40,547 bases of DNA from NCBI GenBank assembly GCA_028355575.1, contig JAOMSY010000007.1, positions 1 through 40,547 of the forward strand, in the 5' to 3' direction. This document shows positions 28,286 through 40,547 of this stretch, one piece after another; the stretch's first letter is position 1, and each line of letters opens with the position of its first letter. A model generated the notes under the pieces. It was not told where the DNA came from. It was given only the letters and a program-made list of their open reading frames with translations, and made no database searches. The DNA comes from Francisellaceae bacterium. GTDB lineage: Bacteria; Pseudomonadota; Gammaproteobacteria; Francisellales; Francisellaceae. A program made the position numbers and the translations under genes.

Positions 28286-29857
28286 ATGAAAAAAATCACC
28301 CGAGCTTTAATCAGTGTATCAGACAAATCTGGCATTTTAGCCTTTGCTAAAACACTTCAAGACCACAATGTTGATATTATCTCAACTGGTGGCACAGCCA
28401 AACTATTAAACGAGAATGGCATCAAAATAACTGAAATTTCTGATTACACTGGCTTTCCTGAAATGATGGATGGTCGTGTAAAAACCTTACATCCTAAAGT
28501 TCACGGAGGACTACTTGGTCGTCGCGGTGTCGATAATGATGTTATGAATAAACATGATATCAAACCAATCGATATGGTCATCGTCAACTTATACCCATTT
28601 AAACAAACAATAGAAAAACCAGATTGCTCATTCGAAAATGCAATTGAAAATATTGATATCGGTGGGCCGACAATGCTCCGCTCTGCTGCAAAAAATCATA
28701 AAGATGTTGCCGTGGTAGCAGATACTCGATTTTATGATCGAATCGTGTCTGAGCTAAATGACAATAATGGCGCATTATCCGCAAACACACGTTTTGAATT
28801 AGCATTAAGCACATTTGAACAAACAGCTAAATATGATGGCATGATTGCAAACTATTTAGGGAAACTAGATACAGAATCAAAGTCATCAAAACATATTTTC
28901 CCAAATACATTTAATTTACAATTAACAAAAAAACAAGAAATGCGCTATGGTGAAAACCCTCACCAAAATGCTGCTTTGTTTGTCGAGCCTGAGTTTGACT
29001 TTCCTGCAGTTGCAAATGCTAAACAAATACAAGGTAAAGCCCTGTCATTTAATAATGTGGCAGATACTGATGCAGCATTACAATGCGTACAAACTTTTGA
29101 AAAACCAGCTTGCGTTATAGTGAAACATGCAAATCCTTGCGGTGTTGCCATTGCAGATAGCATTCAAACTGCTTATCAAAAAGCGTTTAAATGTGACTCA
29201 ACATCAGCATTTGGCGGAATAATTGCTTTCAATAGAAGCTTAGATGTAAATACTGCGAGCGATATTATAAATAACCAATTTGTAGAAGTTATTATTGCAC
29301 CCAAAGTTGAGCCAAAAGCTGCTGAGATTTTATCTTCTAAAAAGAATGTTCGCGTCCTAGCCACTGGCTTCTGGGATACTGCAACTCCAGCAGGTTATGA
29401 ATATAAACGTATTAATGGTGGCTTGCTTGTTCAAGATAGAGACCTTGGCGCAGTACAATATAATGACCTTAAAATTGTTACAGAACGTAAGCCTACTGAT
29501 GAAGAAATTATTGACTTATTATTTGCTTGGAAAGTTGTTAAGTTTGTAAAATCAAACGCGATTGTATACGCAAAAGATAAAATGACTATCGGTATAGGTG
29601 CTGGCCAAATGAGTCGTGTATTTAGCTCTAAAATCGCACTTGAAAAGGCAAAAGAAGCAAATTTAGACATTAAAAACTCAGCAGTTGCTTCTGATGCATT
29701 CTTCCCATTCAGAGATGGTGTTGATGCAGCAGCAAAGTCTCGCGTAAGTTCCATAATACAACCTGGTGGCTCCATTCGCGACCAAGAAATTATCGATGCA
29801 GCTAATGAGCATGGACTTGCTATGGTCTTCACTGGAATGAGACATTTTAGACATTAA
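28286..29857 (+). CDS. purH: PurH, AICAR transformylase / IMP cyclohydrolase
   Basis: A 523-aa bifunctional enzyme for the last two steps of de novo purine synthesis (AICAR to FAICAR, then to IMP), cytoplasmic. The N-terminal MGS-like cyclohydrolase domain opens with [19 protein letters not shown] and includes [28 protein letters not shown] and the INLYPF-like motif. The C-terminal transformylase domain includes [23 protein letters not shown], and [15 protein letters not shown]...[18 protein letters not shown], ending in GMRHFRH. The length is standard. The gene is divergent from the T6SS operon and followed by an SDR gene on the same strand. No strong terminator is seen after it. Confidence 0.98.
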
Positions 29858-30572: not shown

Positions 30573-31280
30573 TTACTTTATTAATAAAGTCGTTGGGTAC
30601 TTCCATTGCTGCCCGCCCCACATAAAAGTGTTATTTATATAAACATTATCATTAAATGGGTTATTTATTGCACCTGGATTCGATACTTGCTCAGCATTAT
30701 TGACAAGAAAACCACTATCATCAATCTCAGGTATATAATATAAAGCACCAGCATTTCCATATGTAGACAAAGAATACGGGCTAGTATATTGAGCATTAGA
30801 ACTTCCCATATTCACAACAACTACCGGTGCTGCTTTTTGAGCTTGCGTGTCCTGAGAGTTTTTTAAAACAGTATAATGAATTTTCCGCAACGCGCTAGAG
30901 TTATCCTCCCAATTAAACTCATCTGCTTGAAAACTAACAACTGGTTCAGACTGATAATAGGTAGGCCAGAATCTAGAGTCACTAGGCGTAGAACAAGATC
31001 CATCTGCAGACATATACTCATAAATATCAGCTGATTTCACATTGTTGGTACCAGGAGTATTTGAACCACCTGCAAAAGTAAGTGACTGGATCGAACTATC
31101 ATCAACAGGCTTTACACACTCTGAATAATAATAATGTATTTTATTATCATTTAATGAAATATATTTCTCAACCAATTGCAAATCTTGACCAGTCTGATTT
31201 ATTACGTGAACATCCCCTGCATATACATATCCAGAAATGAAAATCAGACCGATTGATGTGAAAAGTGGTTTATATGACAT
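30573..31280 (-). CDS. secreted/periplasmic protein of unknown function, paralogue A
   Basis: A 235-aa protein with a type I signal peptide (cleavage likely after SGYVYA, before GDVHV). The mature part is Ser/Asn/Tyr-rich and probably all-beta, with two cysteines (in SECVKP and DGSCST) that could form a disulfide. It shares a pattern with the neighbour upstream: an opening V-x-N-x-TG-x-D/D-x-Q, a C-x-(K/R)-P, a DGSC, a V-SF-x-AD-x(2)-N strand, an I/L-HY strand and a PPV/APV strand, then Y-x(3)-IDxS. I do not recognise the family. The ATG has GGAG 7 nt before it. It starts 9 nt after paralogue B, so they probably form an operon. Confidence 0.75.
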   Translation of the reverse strand: MSYKPLFTSIGLIFISGYVYAGDVHVINQTGQDLQLVEKYISLNDNKIHYYYSECVKPVDDSSIQSLTFAGGSNTPGTNNVKSADIYEYMSADGSCSTPSDSRFWPTYYQSEPVVSFQADEFNWEDNSSALRKIHYTVLKNSQDTQAQKAAPVVVVNMGSSNAQYTSPYSLSTYGNAGALYYIPEIDDSGFLVNNAEQVSNPGAINNPFNDNVYINNTFMWGGQQWKYPTTLLIK

Positions 31281-31289
31281 GTTTATCTC

Positions 31290-31865
31290 CTAATATAAAT
31301 AAAGTGATTGCCCTGATTTAATATAAGCATTCTCAGAATACGAATTATCAATAGATGGTGGATATAAAATATCTGGATTCGAAGCATCATAAAAGGCATA
31401 TGAACTTTGCCCTTTATCACCCTGCCTATAACCCGTATACATTGATACTGATTTTAATTGTGGATTTAGAATCACGACTGGGGTCATGTTTAACCCTGTA
31501 GATGTAAATGCAAAATAATGCAAATCAGTGCTATTTTTATTTAAGTCATCAGCATTAAAAGAAACAATATTAGAGTACCCGACCCTTGATGATTGCATAG
31601 TACAAGAACCATCGCTAGAGGAATAACGCTTAATAAATGCCGCAGATATTTTGCCATATTTTGCTGAATCAGCAGGTAAGTTAATGTCTGTAACAGTACC
31701 ATCTGGGCGCAAACATGTTTCTCCAGATACAGAAGAACCGTTATTATACAACACAACTGACTGGACATCGTGCCCCGTATTGTTTCCAACTTTAAGATCA
31801 AATGAATTAGCAATGAGTGGCGCAGCCAATAAAGCACACACGCCAATATACCTGATTACTTTCAT
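31290..31865 (-). CDS. secreted/periplasmic protein of unknown function, paralogue B
   Basis: A 191-aa protein from the ATG at 31865, with a type I signal peptide (MKVIRYIGVCALLAAPLIANS, then FDLKV). The TTG further upstream at 31919 would put 18 extra residues ahead of the signal. The mature part aligns with paralogue A: NNTGHDVQSVV, the TCLRP cysteine, the DGSCT cysteine, IVSFNADDLN, LHYFAF, TPVVILNP, and IDNSY at the end. It is shorter than A. The ribosome binding site is AGGGTG. It is the first gene of the pair. Function is unknown; candidates are surface or secreted factors, but nothing in the sequence shows which. Confidence 0.75.
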   Translation of the reverse strand: MKVIRYIGVCALLAAPLIANSFDLKVGNNTGHDVQSVVLYNNGSSVSGETCLRPDGTVTDINLPADSAKYGKISAAFIKRYSSSDGSCTMQSSRVGYSNIVSFNADDLNKNSTDLHYFAFTSTGLNMTPVVILNPQLKSVSMYTGYRQGDKGQSSYAFYDASNPDILYPPSIDNSYSENAYIKSGQSLYLY

Positions 31866-31905
31866 ATAACACCCTATACATTTTTTGATTATATTTTGGA
31901 TGCAT

Positions 31906-31934
31906 ATTATACATCTCATTCTAGAATAGCAAGT
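31906..31934 (-). promoter_or_regulatory. promoter candidate for the secreted paralogue pair
   Basis: A perfect -10 box TATAAT on the minus strand (31906-31911) lies about 41 nt before the ATG of paralogue B. The best -35-like match is TTGCTA or CTTGCT at 15-16 nt spacing (31927-31933), so the -35 is weak. No other close -10 is in the 135-nt gap 31866-32000. Confidence 0.4.
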
Positions 31935-32000
31935 TAAAATTTTGCATCACATAATTCAAAAAAATATATTAATAACCAATTATCAGCTTATTTAGTTTAA

Positions 32001-33047
32001 CTAAAAAGTAGGCATAGCTCTAGGTAACAACAAATATGACAAGCTTAGCGCAGCTGTGGGTGCATTATAACGATAGGTTTCCAATAATTGTTGATATAAC
32101 ACTGCTCTGACACCTTGAGAATATGGGGCCAAAACACCCCAACGCCCATATTGTAACTGCATCATTTGGTTTGCTTTACCCTTACCTGAAATATCGTTAG
32201 GCAATGGGTAAATGTTTGATAAATAATTAAAAGTATTAATTAAATAAGAAATATATTTTTTGCCAAAGACAATATTGTTTTGGAAAGACAACACAATAAA
32301 TTGTACATTCAAGGCAGCATGAGAGATATCCTCACCTTGAAAAACAGATAATGTAGAAATAGCCCAATCTAAGCGTTTTTGTTTAATTTTCATTTGTTTT
32401 TTAAAATAGCCTGCTAAATAAGTTGCCCTTTTTTTGTAAAGATTATTACCTGTCAGTCGCCATAACAGAACAAAAACCGAACCTAGCACATTTTGTTGAT
32501 TAAATACGATATTTCCACCGAAACTAGGCTGTAAATACCATCCAACACCCTCAGCTTTATCCTCATGCCAATATTCATCAAAAGCAGATACTAACTCTTT
32601 AACAATCAAAATATGCGAATGGAACTTATCTAGGTTTAAATAGAACAGTATTCGATTAGACCTTAGCAAATCCAAATACTGAAGAATTGGCAATAAAATC
32701 ATACCTCCCATCACAACATATTTTTTCTTTCCCTTCGAAAACTCACCACTTTGGAAGGCATTAAACTCTTCCTTTTCTAGGTGCTTCATTACTACTTTTA
32801 CATTCCTAGATGCTAATATGAAATATCTATAATCTTTTGTAGCCAAAAACATATTTATATACGATTGCAACCAGTAACTTTCATACCAGGCCAGATTATT
32901 GACAGAAAGCTTACTCACTTCTTCAATACTGGGCGCATTTTGTAAAACTTCTTCATACATATCCATTACTTTTTTATCATTAAATGCGAAAGCTTGAGCC
33001 TGACATAAGAGTAAAATTATTATGCTAACCATCACATATCGAATCAC
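32001..33047 (-). CDS. periplasmic helical (toroid-like) protein of the EPS locus
   Basis: A 348-aa protein with an N-terminal signal peptide (MIRYVMVSIIILLLCQAQAFA). The rest is helical, with repeated patterns such as W-x-x-YINMFLATKDYRYFILA and LLWRLTGNNLYKKRATYLAGYFKKQ. These fit an (alpha/alpha) toroid like those of polysaccharide lyases, epimerases and some glycoside hydrolases. A GEDISHAALNVQFIV motif could hold active-site residues. I cannot name the family. The GTG start overlaps the wzx stop (GTGA, 4 nt), so it is coupled to the flippase and probably acts on the exported polysaccharide in the periplasm. The function is inferred from fold pattern and context. Confidence 0.6.
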   Translation of the reverse strand: MIRYVMVSIIILLLCQAQAFAFNDKKVMDMYEEVLQNAPSIEEVSKLSVNNLAWYESYWLQSYINMFLATKDYRYFILASRNVKVVMKHLEKEEFNAFQSGEFSKGKKKYVVMGGMILLPILQYLDLLRSNRILFYLNLDKFHSHILIVKELVSAFDEYWHEDKAEGVGWYLQPSFGGNIVFNQQNVLGSVFVLLWRLTGNNLYKKRATYLAGYFKKQMKIKQKRLDWAISTLSVFQGEDISHAALNVQFIVLSFQNNIVFGKKYISYLINTFNYLSNIYPLPNDISGKGKANQMMQLQYGRWGVLAPYSQGVRAVLYQQLLETYRYNAPTAALSLSYLLLPRAMPTF

Positions 33048-35760: not shown

Positions 35761-37119
35761 TTGAAGAGTAACCATTTAGGCTTAAATATATTTATATTTG
35801 TTTATATTGCTCTGTGGGCAAGCACCCCACTAATTAGCCTCTATCCAAACGGTATAATTTTATATGGATGCATCTATTTTTTATTATTATTTGTCATACT
35901 ATTCGATTCAACAAAAAACACATTCTCATTCCTACTTGCCTTTTCAACTTTTTTGTACTTTTATCAGTTCCCACTCATCAATACGTTTAGTAATGATACA
36001 CCTGCACATCAATATAATATTATTTTACTACCAAACCAGCTTATCCAGATGGCGATTGTTTATAATACGATCTTATTGTTATTATATATTTGTATTAAAT
36101 TTATTGAAAAAAACATCTCTCCAGAAAAAGTTAAAGAGGCTATCACTAACTATCATTTAGTTGATTTGCTATTTTTTATTTCCTCAATACTTTCTTTGAT
36201 CTTAGTATTTTATAGTATTGCTAGAGCCGGTGGTGTCAATGCTTATTTTGCATTAGATAAATTCCAAGCGCTTGAAGTTAGCAAATTCATCTACTTTAAC
36301 TACAACCACTTTTCAATTCTTGCTTTTTTACTTGGTGCACTATCAAAGAATAGAATAATTCGACTTCTCGCCTGGGGTTTAATCACGTTTATCATTCTTT
36401 TTAATGTGCTAAGTGCGATGCGTTACATGTTACTTTTTGGTGGTGTCATTGCATTTTCTGTGATGGTTAAAAGAGTCAAGTTTTGGCATATATTATTGGC
36501 GTTCTCTGGTGCAATATTAGGAGGATTAACCAAACTTGTTTATTATAATTTAAAACTCTTCTTCTTAGGAAAAATACCTGCTGATAAAATAATTTGGTTT
36601 GATTTTGATACATTTTATCAAACAGTTATCTTATTCCAAGATGGCCAAGGCAACTTGTTATTATTTGCTCAATACATTGGCCGATTTACGTCTTATGATT
36701 ACTTCAAATTGATGTCAGGAATTTTTGTTAATTCAGTGCCATTTAGCAGTATAGTATGGGGCGAAAACTCATCAGCTGGTGACTTAATGCAAGAACATCT
36801 AGGAATAGCGTGGGGTGGACTAGCGTCAGCACCGTATATCATACCATATATGTGCTTTGGCTTATTTGGTATAGTGCTAATTTATTACGCATATTACTTA
36901 ACCTTATATACATTTTCTAGAGTTATAAACTCTGAAACAATGATTACATCTTTATTATTTTTTTCCAGCATCCCATTCACATTGATATATTTCCAACGAA
37001 ACGAACTCTCTGCGATATATAAAAACTTTTTCATTGAGTTTGCTGCTATCATCATCATCGTATTTATCGCTAAATCAATGCAACTATTACTCTCTAAAAA
37101 AGCAATAAATGATCTATAG
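35761..37119 (+). CDS. Wzy-like polysaccharide polymerase / O-antigen ligase-type membrane protein
   Basis: A 452-aa protein with about 10-12 predicted membrane helices and a larger soluble loop in the middle-to-late part (about 265-345: FDFDTFYQTVILFQDGQGNLLLF...VNSVPFSSIVWGENSSAGD). This is the usual layout of Wzy polymerases, whose sequences are poorly conserved. An in-frame TAA at 35758-35760 forces the start to be the TTG at 35761 or later, and no ATG occurs for a long way. It is the only plus-strand gene in the EPS locus and ends 26 nt inside the 3' end of the Wzz/Wzc-like gene. Polymerase is the best guess from context; a ligase is possible. Confidence 0.7.
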   Translation: MKSNHLGLNIFIFVYIALWASTPLISLYPNGIILYGCIYFLLLFVILFDSTKNTFSFLLAFSTFLYFYQFPLINTFSNDTPAHQYNIILLPNQLIQMAIVYNTILLLLYICIKFIEKNISPEKVKEAITNYHLVDLLFFISSILSLILVFYSIARAGGVNAYFALDKFQALEVSKFIYFNYNHFSILAFLLGALSKNRIIRLLAWGLITFIILFNVLSAMRYMLLFGGVIAFSVMVKRVKFWHILLAFSGAILGGLTKLVYYNLKLFFLGKIPADKIIWFDFDTFYQTVILFQDGQGNLLLFAQYIGRFTSYDYFKLMSGIFVNSVPFSSIVWGENSSAGDLMQEHLGIAWGGLASAPYIIPYMCFGLFGIVLIYYAYYLTLYTFSRVINSETMITSLLFFSSIPFTLIYFQRNELSAIYKNFFIEFAAIIIIVFIAKSMQLLLSKKAINDL

Positions 37120-39112
37120 AAACTTTAATTTCCGACTTTAAAAATAACATGTACTTTTCAATATCGTGACTGTAATGTTTATACCTTTCAATAAGCAAGA
37201 TATTTCTCTTAGCTTCTTTTATAAAGCTTTGATTAACAAGAGAGCTGGATACATTTCCAAAAATATATATCGTAACTGCACTCTTTGGTGGGAGATCATC
37301 CTCTGGTATTGACCACCTTAAATTTTGTTCAATAGCATAGACATTATGATTACTCTGTGAACTATAACTCAAGTGCTGATAATCACCATAAAATAGATCT
37401 TGGTTAATTATAATATAAATATCTTTTTTCAGGACATTACATAATATTTTAGATAGCTCATTTAATAATAATTTACTTTGATTAGAGAATGTCCTTGAAG
37501 GTGTATAAAAACCAATACAGTCAAGCGCTTTATCATTTTTTAAATTATAATACTGATATATATCTACCTTAGAAATAAGAAAGTTTGGCATTATTCTTCT
37601 TTTTTTCTGGAAAATTCTTTTAAAATTTTTCCAAGCTGAAATTTCATTAAAAAGCTCAAATACTTTTATTTGATATGGCAAATGCAGCTCAGCTTTCTGC
37701 GCAATACCACGAACCACATTTTCCATAAGTAAAATAATTGCACATCCTGCCATGACGCCTAAAAATAGAAACAGGAGTAAAATTATTTTAAGTGACTTGT
37801 TTACTGATTTTGGATTAATAGTTGATCTATCTAATACTGATAGCGAAGACACATTATCTTTAAGTAATGCTGAAAATTGATTATAGGCAGTTAAAACATT
37901 TTCATATGTTATTTTAAGGACTGTTATCTCATTTTTTATGTCATCAATTTTGCCCGTCTTTTCAGGTAAAAGCTTAATTTGTTGATTTATCAGCTCAATA
38001 CTCTCAACTGTCTTAGCAATATCATTCTTTATTGTAATTACTTTTACATCTTTCTCTGTATATGTTTCATTAAGCTTGAAGTATCTATTCTGTAAATCAA
38101 GTAACTGGCTTTCCAATTTGCTCTGTCTATTAAGATACGACTCATAGCGACTATCAATTCCACCAGCACTCTTATCAGTCATATAATCAGTCAATTGACT
38201 TGTTTTTTGTTGCAGTTTATAAGAAATTATTTCAAGTTGAGTTTGTAAAAAATTAACTGTGGACTCTGTTTCATTATTATTTAATTTCTCGTTCATTTGA
38301 ATTGCTTGGGAGATTATTTCACTTAGAATATTTGAAGCTTCATACGGGGAACCTGCACTATAAATCAACTCTACCAAGGTAGTGTCTTTATTTGCCTCTT
38401 GAACTAATAAACTTTTCTGAATATCACTTACGACTGACTCCACTGATAGTTTAATAATTTTAAATTCCAAGCCTTCGTTGGCACGAATTTCATTTACATC
38501 AACTTCTATGTCATCTTGTTTAAGAACTTCACCAACCTTTCCTGCAAAGCTTTTACCATTCGGTAATTTTAATCGATAATTCTCATTTCCGAGGTATGTG
38601 AAAGAAATTGGCAGCCCATACCACGCTATCGGGATATTCAATTTAGAAATATTAATAATTTCACCACCCCAAGCATAACTCGTCATACCCAAGAAGGGTT
38701 TGCTTAAGTTTTCATGCTGAGCAATTTTAGCATTATAACCTTGCGCTTTATGTTTACCTATAACTGGAAAATAATCATAAACAACTTGAATATCTAAATG
38801 CAGTTTTTCAACAACCTTTTCGATTACAGAATTAGACTCAATTAAGCTAATCTGCTCATTAGTGACAGAAATCTTTGATGCAGATGAAAGAGTCTGAGCA
38901 AGTGTAGCGTTATTTTCTGATGATAAAATGGATACCATAAAGGAATTACCATAATATGGTGAAACACTAACCAATGATTTAGACTGATATATAGATGATG
39001 AGTGTAAATAAACCAATATTCCAATAATAACTGATACAATTGCACTAAAAATTATCCAGTGCCATTGCAGGATAAGCGTCCTAAGTTGTTTTGCAATGTT
39101 TAAGGAATCCAC
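37094..39112 (-). CDS. Wzz/Wzc-like polysaccharide co-polymerase, kinase domain degenerate
   Basis: A 672-aa co-polymerase with a GTG start (GGATG before it). Membrane helices lie at about 19-37 and 441-463. The periplasmic part has the Wzz domain, a coiled coil (about 284-420), and the proline-containing INPKSVNKSL segment just before the second helix. The C-terminal cytoplasmic domain (about 515-672) sits where a BY-kinase is expected. Instead of a P-loop of the G-x4-GK[ST] type it reads GFYTPSRTFSNQSKLLL, and the following strand DIYIIINQDLF replaces the usual LLIDxDLR. There is no Tyr cluster at the end (DHLLLF). It controls chain length and export through Wza. The phosphorylation cycle is probably absent. 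Confidence 0.82.
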   Translation of the reverse strand: MDSLNIAKQLRTLILQWHWIIFSAIVSVIIGILVYLHSSSIYQSKSLVSVSPYYGNSFMVSILSSENNATLAQTLSSASKISVTNEQISLIESNSVIEKVVEKLHLDIQVVYDYFPVIGKHKAQGYNAKIAQHENLSKPFLGMTSYAWGGEIINISKLNIPIAWYGLPISFTYLGNENYRLKLPNGKSFAGKVGEVLKQDDIEVDVNEIRANEGLEFKIIKLSVESVVSDIQKSLLVQEANKDTTLVELIYSAGSPYEASNILSEIISQAIQMNEKLNNNETESTVNFLQTQLEIISYKLQQKTSQLTDYMTDKSAGGIDSRYESYLNRQSKLESQLLDLQNRYFKLNETYTEKDVKVITIKNDIAKTVESIELINQQIKLLPEKTGKIDDIKNEITVLKITYENVLTAYNQFSALLKDNVSSLSVLDRSTINPKSVNKSLKIILLLFLFLGVMAGCAIILLMENVVRGIAQKAELHLPYQIKVFELFNEISAWKNFKRIFQKKRRIMPNFLISKVDIYQYYNLKNDKALDCIGFYTPSRTFSNQSKLLLNELSKILCNVLKKDIYIIINQDLFYGDYQHLSYSSQSNHNVYAIEQNLRWSIPEDDLPPKSAVTIYIFGNVSSSLVNQSFIKEAKRNILLIERYKHYSHDIEKYMLFLKSEIKVSIDHLLLF

Positions 39113-39186: not shown

Positions 39187-40386
39187 CTAATTCTTCAATG
39201 CACTTAAACTAACACCCAGCGAGGCAGTTGATATAGCGAGACTACTCACTGGTGCAACATACCCAATAACTTGACCAAGGGTTTCTAATCCACTGCGAGA
39301 AATAAATACAATATCTTGAGATTTTAAAGCAAACTGCCCAGCTAAATTAAACGCATCGGGTGACTTTAAATTAATAGTAAATACCTCAGGAATAGATTCA
39401 TAGTTTCTAACCACATAAGTATAAGCTGGGGCTGAACCCGAAGTAACACCTCTAGCTGCGACAATAGCATCTTTTAAACTCATCTCCCCATTCATCATAT
39501 TAAATGCCCCTGGTTGAAAAACATCACCAAGCACATAAACAAGAGAACGGTTAGTAGGAATAAAAACCACACTACCCCTTTCTAACAACCAATTAGTTGA
39601 AGAACCATCTGGTGCTTCTAAGTCATCAATATCAACAGATGTTTCTACACTACCTTGTTTAACAATAACATTTTGAGTATCAGCGCATATCTGTTGGTTA
39701 TTACCGTTGACACTACCAGTAGCATTACTAAGTGCATTACCACAACGTATTGGGCCGCCAGCAGTATTTATTGCATCTAATACTGTCATAGGTACATTTG
39801 TGACAGAAATAACCATAGGATCTCTTACCGCACCTGTCACATTAATGTTTTGACTATTAAATTTGACAATATCCAACGTAATTTGAGGATTTTTCATATA
39901 TTCTTTTAATTCGTTGGCAATCAAATCCCTAGCCTGTTCAACTTTTAAGCCCACAACTTTTAAATAACCTATATAAGGGTAATATATACGACCTTGTGTA
40001 TCGACAGTAAAACCATTTGACCTTACATTTGACGCTATAACAAAATTCGAAATTGGATTTGTAATATTTTCGTCATTCCATACAATTACATTCAGCACAT
40101 CTTGGTAGCCAATTTTATATTCATACCCCAATGTATCCGCAGTAAAGCCTTCTGGTGGCTTATAATTTTTAGCACTTAACTCTAAGAGTTTTTGTTGTTC
40201 TGCCCTCTGAGCATTTATTAGCGCTACATCAATATTGATAAGCTTAGCTTGCTGAGCTTCACCCTTGCGGTTTACAGATGGCGTGAAGTCATCATTATCT
40301 GCCATCCACATGCCAGGGATTGTGCAACCACACATTAATAGAGATAAGAATAGTAATGTTATGGGCTTCAAAATGTGAACTAACAT
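39187..40386 (-). CDS. Wza-type polysaccharide export lipoprotein
   Basis: A 399-aa outer-membrane lipoprotein: a type II signal peptide with lipobox LMCGC, the PES domain (YKIGYQDVLNVIVWNDENIT, and VDTQGRIYYPYIGYLKVVGLKVEQAR), then SLBB domains (INVTGAVRDPMVISVTNVPMTVLDAINTAGGP, and VYVLGDVFQPGAFNMMNGEMSLKDAIVAARG). The C-terminal stretch VSSLAISTASLGVSLSALKN could be the amphipathic helix that lines the pore. It forms the octameric export channel. The ATG at 40386 is chosen; a TTG at 40410 would add eight residues before the signal peptide. It is 74 nt upstream of the co-polymerase gene and probably the first gene of that pair. Confidence 0.93.
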   Translation of the reverse strand: MLVHILKPITLLFLSLLMCGCTIPGMWMADNDDFTPSVNRKGEAQQAKLINIDVALINAQRAEQQKLLELSAKNYKPPEGFTADTLGYEYKIGYQDVLNVIVWNDENITNPISNFVIASNVRSNGFTVDTQGRIYYPYIGYLKVVGLKVEQARDLIANELKEYMKNPQITLDIVKFNSQNINVTGAVRDPMVISVTNVPMTVLDAINTAGGPIRCGNALSNATGSVNGNNQQICADTQNVIVKQGSVETSVDIDDLEAPDGSSTNWLLERGSVVFIPTNRSLVYVLGDVFQPGAFNMMNGEMSLKDAIVAARGVTSGSAPAYTYVVRNYESIPEVFTINLKSPDAFNLAGQFALKSQDIVFISRSGLETLGQVIGYVAPVSSLAISTASLGVSLSALKN

Positions 40387-40457
40387 ATAAGCTTTAGGGT
40401 GTAATAACAAATATAAATAAAATTATTGAATCTATTAACCTTATTCAAGCATAACAG

Positions 40458-40490
40458 ATTAATATTTATAGAAATTCTATAAATATTAAT
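40458..40490. repeat. 33-nt perfect palindrome upstream of wza
   Basis: ATTAATATTTATAGAA (40458-40473) and TTCTATAAATATTAAT (40475-40490) are exact reverse complements around a single A at 40474. It lies 72 nt before the wza ATG. No T-run follows on either strand, so it does not look like a rho-independent terminator. It fits an operator for a dimeric regulator. A second smaller inverted repeat, TTGAAT/ATTCAA, is at 40426-40448. The rest of 40387-40547 shows nothing else that I can support. Confidence 0.6.
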
Positions 40491-40547
40491 AAAACATTCA
40501 ATCCTAACAAGCTCTGGCAAGTGATATTATCAATGGGAGTCATATCG

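Follow-up and report, generated by a model that had tools for sequence, protein, structure and literature searches.

Dimeric repressors, such as those of the TetR or MarR type, have operators with dyad symmetry, and polysaccharide operons can be preceded by the JUMPstart/ops motif, GGCGGTAGNNT. At the RNA level, a stem can mark the final end of a transcript after Rho-type termination and exonuclease trimming. Processing by 3′–5′ exonucleases is common among Rho-terminated transcripts (PMC7815308, PMC10319736). Here, we describe a perfect palindrome located before the polysaccharide export gene wza in a Francisellaceae genome. We tentatively read it as a single-copy, AT-rich RNA hairpin at a transcript boundary, a possible reading that we favor over a DNA operator, a repeat without function, or an artifact of assembly.

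A perfect palindrome at a contig edge

The window, by which we mean the whole stretch of DNA analyzed, is a complete contig of 40,547 bases (G000:C148). The assembly to which it belongs totals 1.95 Mb across 180 contigs and is 57.8% complete, such that approximately 42% of the genome is missing. At positions 40458–40490 of the window lies the sequence ATTAATATTTATAGAAATTCTATAAATATTAAT, which consists of two 16-nt arms flanking a single central A. All 16 arm positions pair and the symmetry breaks at the next base pair outward, confirming the 33-nt perfect palindrome reported in the first-pass annotation. The stem contains a single G-C pair, and its arms are built from self-complementary words (e.g., ATTAAT and AATATT). 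From the palindrome edge to the A of the wza ATG (40386, minus strand) we measured 71 nt, in agreement with the annotated placement close before this gene. The annotation was also right that no T-run is present on either side; the interval 40300–40547 contains zero terminator-like sites, and the palindrome does not have the form of an intrinsic terminator, a G+C-rich stem with a T-run after it.

On its other side, the palindrome is separated from the contig end by 57 nt (40491–40547), in which no neighboring gene is recognizable. This stretch holds a single open minus-strand frame that stops inside the palindrome (40466–40468). Two open frames at the contig end (26 and 30 aa) were compared with 30 family genomes, and no relative scored better than E 0.2.

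The palindrome is a real, rare feature. In a sample of 247,555 bases from this genome (247.6 kb; the window plus 14 stretches, loops of 0–8), no other perfect inverted repeat has arms as long, and only three repeats have arms of at least 11 (the palindrome, with 16, and two others, with 11). The arm-length distribution drops by 0.31 per base; extrapolated to arms of at least 16 (loops of 0–8), it yields an expectation of 0.001 per window and 0.05 per 1.95-Mb genome, in a fit to arms of 7–12 that true hairpins may inflate. When 2,000 sequences of 2 kb were simulated with the local composition, the longest arm, for a spacer of 1 only, was 14. Ten repeats with arms of at least 11 were present in 400 kb of relatives, a non-random set in which 6 of 20 stretches had been picked for matching the palindrome or wza, and one of the ten exceeds the palindrome (arm 18, 8-nt loop). 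In the relative G029 (L072, 11051–11094), 18-nt perfect arms with an 8-nt loop lie between two genes of the same direction and have no T-tail. The first-pass annotation had judged a chance origin very unlikely. The rarity within one window stands, but such a repeat is not astonishing across many scanned windows; moreover, the palindrome was picked from a scan, and its rarity is therefore not proof of function. The survey does supply a background frequency of such repeats for one AT-rich family.

Copies and similar hairpins

Many unrelated copies, the outcome that the first-pass annotation had named as speaking against its interpretation, did not turn up in a search of the assembly. Allowing as many as 3 mismatches, we found no second copy of the whole palindrome in the assembly (58% complete) and no copy in 86 further genomes. 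A dispersed repeat family is rejected on the basis of this single copy and of the last 161 nt of the contig, which surround the palindrome and likewise occur only once in the assembly. A 19-nt core, again with up to 3 mismatches, was found at 10 places in this genome, including the palindrome itself, versus 17 for the reversed control, and at 5 versus 25 in G001, the one genome of the same genus. Three of the nine other places lie inside reading frames of at least 80 aa and six lie outside. A core that is less frequent than the reversed control gives no indication of a regulon of degenerate sites.

An exact 24-base core had 0 matches in the genome_contigs collection, which may omit near relatives. 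The 19-nt core is present in eight viral contigs, six of them copies of two contexts, and the full palindrome is reached in none of the eight. A plasmid search returned only partial AT-rich matches, at E 0.009 or worse, and a phage search gave, among the matches listed, 25 bases at E 0.7. The best Rfam score was 17.5 bits against a gathering score of 58, and no known structured RNA was thus recognized. Descriptions of the "33-bp palindrome" type were not found in the literature, nor was the combination of perfect palindrome, operator, exopolysaccharide, and AT-rich; publication elsewhere is not thereby excluded in either case.

A search with the palindrome's own arms led to 33-nt AT-rich hairpins of 15 bp with a 3-nt loop in four genomes, with one sequence shared by G028, G025, and G019 and another in G005 (L095, L097, and L098, each at 1501–1533; G025:C1:796246–796278). 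The flanks, which were read in G028, G019, and G005, place the hairpin a few nucleotides behind a gene, identified as galU in G005 (L098) only. Two of the four genomes, G005 and G028, were chosen for folding. The G028 hairpin includes two G-U pairs and folds fully only on the galU strand (−11.0 versus −4.8 kcal/mol). Folding of the G-U pairs on that strand only suggests an intercistronic RNA hairpin ahead of the acetate–CoA ligase gene. Together, these loci show that AT-rich stems occur behind genes and that, in one case, the pairing can be formed only by RNA of the gene strand. In G018, a further such stem follows an MFS gene.

When the middle was left free, the outer arms matched at about as many places in the family as the reversed control and showed no enrichment. 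Across 30 family genomes, a covariance model built from the window and three relatives (R1; 150 candidates scored per genome) recovered, at E < 0.01, only the seed loci and the orthologues identical to them. Its marginal matches were one locus in G018 (G018:C1:141635; E 0.033) and one within a G029 reading frame (E 0.036). Since the model found no further clear member, common descent of the window, galU-type, and G018 hairpins is not indicated.

To weigh a DNA site against an RNA hairpin, we counted hairpins of at least 8 bp in 294 intergenic regions (103 from G000 and 191 from relatives, the latter in the non-random 400-kb set described above), with expected counts taken from Markov sequences; the palindrome's own region has no right-hand gene and lies outside these counts. 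Tandem regions contained 30 hairpins versus 15.3 expected (Poisson 0.0006) and convergent regions 7 versus 2.55 (Poisson 0.016), while divergent regions contained 6 versus 7.6 (Poisson 0.77). An excess in tandem and convergent regions and none in divergent ones indicates that the hairpins of this family mark gene ends more than promoters. The contrast is weaker for hairpins without a T-tail (26 in tandem plus convergent regions, 5 in divergent), and their enrichment is less clear (26 versus 17.9 in tandem plus convergent regions, the expectation being for all hairpins).

The wza locus and competing explanations

On the minus strand, wza (39187–40386), which encodes a polysaccharide export lipoprotein with Poly_export and SLBB domains, is followed by a gene for a wzc-like chain-length protein (37094–39112, minus strand) with N-terminal WZC_N and Wzz domains and a decayed C-terminal kinase part. 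This 672-aa protein is without Walker A, a DTPP-type Walker B, and the C-terminal tyrosine-bearing tail, motifs that are kept in two relatives (750 and 743 aa). Matches to wza were found in 14 of 51 genomes at E ≤ 0.001 and in 3 of 274 genomes of a wider draw at 1e-60, G000 included in both counts. A first scan of genome_contigs confirmed no named relative, and the best ten plasmid relatives share 29–33% identity. Besides G000, near-full-length relatives occur in G007, G004, G031, G250, and G134 (45–53% identity), and all five have a gene for a wzb-like low-molecular-weight phosphatase directly upstream of wza and co-directional with it. In G000, wzb is absent from the 161 nt upstream of wza, and the rest of the assembly gave no good copy: the only two matches, at 29% and 31% identity, are weak and lie on other contigs. 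With the Wzc motifs missing and no wzb next to wza, this genome appears to have lost the control of polysaccharide export by phosphorylation. In the five full-length relatives, neither the palindrome nor any inverted repeat with arms longer than 8 was present within 700 nt upstream of the wza match.

Further features were noted in the window. Four proteins encoded in or beside the polysaccharide cluster (30573–33047 and 35761–37119) have no Pfam or NCBIfam match. A type VI secretion cluster at 2283–28004 adjoins purH (28286–29857) and the polysaccharide genes; its members include VipA, TssF, IcmF-type, VgrG-type hub, PAAR-like, pentapeptide/DUF2169, and DUF3540 proteins.

As RNA, each strand of the palindrome can fold (−11.3 kcal/mol) into a 15-bp stem closed by a 3-nt loop; none of 200 shuffles was as stable, and the fold z-scores of the two strands are −5.3 and −6.7. 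A minus-strand transcript, either entering from past the contig edge or starting at wza's own promoter, would form this 15-bp stem. We suggest that the stem would mark the upstream gene's 3′ end, as a barrier to 3′–5′ exonucleases after Rho-type termination; alternatively, it may keep the stability of the upstream and wza messages separate. It should not end transcription by itself, since the missing U-run means that the stem is not a self-sufficient terminator. The neighbor upstream of wza is co-directional and wzb-like in all five relatives, and a tandem context is therefore plausible in G000. The stability of the fold, the excess of hairpins in tandem and convergent regions, and the like-sized hairpins behind galU also favor this reading. 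Counting against an RNA hairpin are the contig end, with no upstream gene recognizable within the last 57 nt and the one open minus-strand frame stopping inside the palindrome, and pairing that is perfect down to a 1-nt spacer, more than an RNA stem needs. The less clear enrichment of hairpins without a T-tail, the origin of the similar hairpins in a search with arms that show no enrichment themselves, and the lack of further clear members of model R1 weigh against it as well. The first-pass annotation had instead proposed an operator of a dimeric or tetrameric regulator controlling the exopolysaccharide export genes. Such a regulator would bind the dyad over the wza promoter and repress or activate export. 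Its observations of position and of the absent T-run hold, and the symmetry, perfect through the center and upstream of a transport gene, is in keeping with such a site. Promoter-like hexamers (TTGAAT-16-TAGAAT, 40474–40501, minus strand) overlap the palindrome, although sites of this kind are not above the shuffle expectation (3 near the palindrome, one of which overlaps it, versus 1.8, sd 1.4). Without wzb in the 161 nt upstream, wza may need a promoter of its own. A local regulator may also act at one site only, and the search for further sites covered 58% of the genome. The operator itself nevertheless gained no support: the palindrome is unique at up to 3 mismatches, its core falls below the reversed control in both G000 and G001, and the dyad is absent before wza in the five full-length relatives. 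No regulator was recognized near the polysaccharide genes in the window, and the sole one recognized is a LysR-type gene 39 kb away. The preference of the family's hairpins for positions behind genes rather than between divergent promoters also argues against an operator, as does the 33 bp of perfect symmetry, which exceeds a typical dimer site. We therefore regard an operator as doubtful. The more specific proposal that the dyad is a dedicated single-site transcriptional switch, replacing phosphorylation control of export after loss of the Wzc kinase motifs and displacement of wzb, we consider highly improbable. Were the palindrome a control site, it would be relevant to the regulation of a polysaccharide export locus that has neither an intact Wzc kinase nor an adjacent wzb.

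An AT-rich inverted repeat could also have arisen without function, by drift or by template switching that perfected imperfect arms. Homogenization of inverted-repeat arms by template switching has been described (PMC8604942, PMC3820800). The self-complementary words of the arms and the lack of conservation in relatives fit this explanation, and with 0.05 such repeats expected per genome by extrapolation, a large scan must contain some. Set against it are the expectation of 0.001 in the window and a position ahead of the export pair's first gene, a natural place to look for a control element; on balance, we judge a repeat devoid of function to be unlikely, at about the same probability as an operator. 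An assembly artifact, in the form of fold-back or misjoined sequence, would suit a site 57 nt from a contig end in an assembly of 180 pieces. Yet the pairing breaks off abruptly after 16 nt and gives way to unrelated flanks, unlike in fold-back chimeras, and the assembly contains the last 161 nt only once; an artifact is thus very improbable. The RNA hairpin at a transcript boundary remains the reading we prefer, with due caution. On its own the palindrome matters little, being ordinary in kind, and its case illustrates that a striking dyad may be single-copy, lineage-specific, and situated at a contig edge.

Comparison with known systems

The palindrome shares with JUMPstart/ops elements a position before an export operon, but its region is without the ops motif (0 matches in the window at up to 1 mismatch). 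Like an intrinsic terminator, it is an inverted repeat able to form a hairpin; it differs in having no T-run and one G-C pair. As with TetR- and MarR-type operators, a dyad lies upstream of a transport gene and overlaps a promoter-like site, whereas the palindrome is longer, more perfect, and present in a single copy, with no cognate regulator found. Compared with the stem-loops that protect 3′ ends in Rho- and exonuclease-dependent processing, the palindrome, known from sequence alone, is distinguished by its AT-rich stem, 3-nt loop, and contig-edge position, and it has in common with them a stable intergenic stem that is not followed by a U-run.
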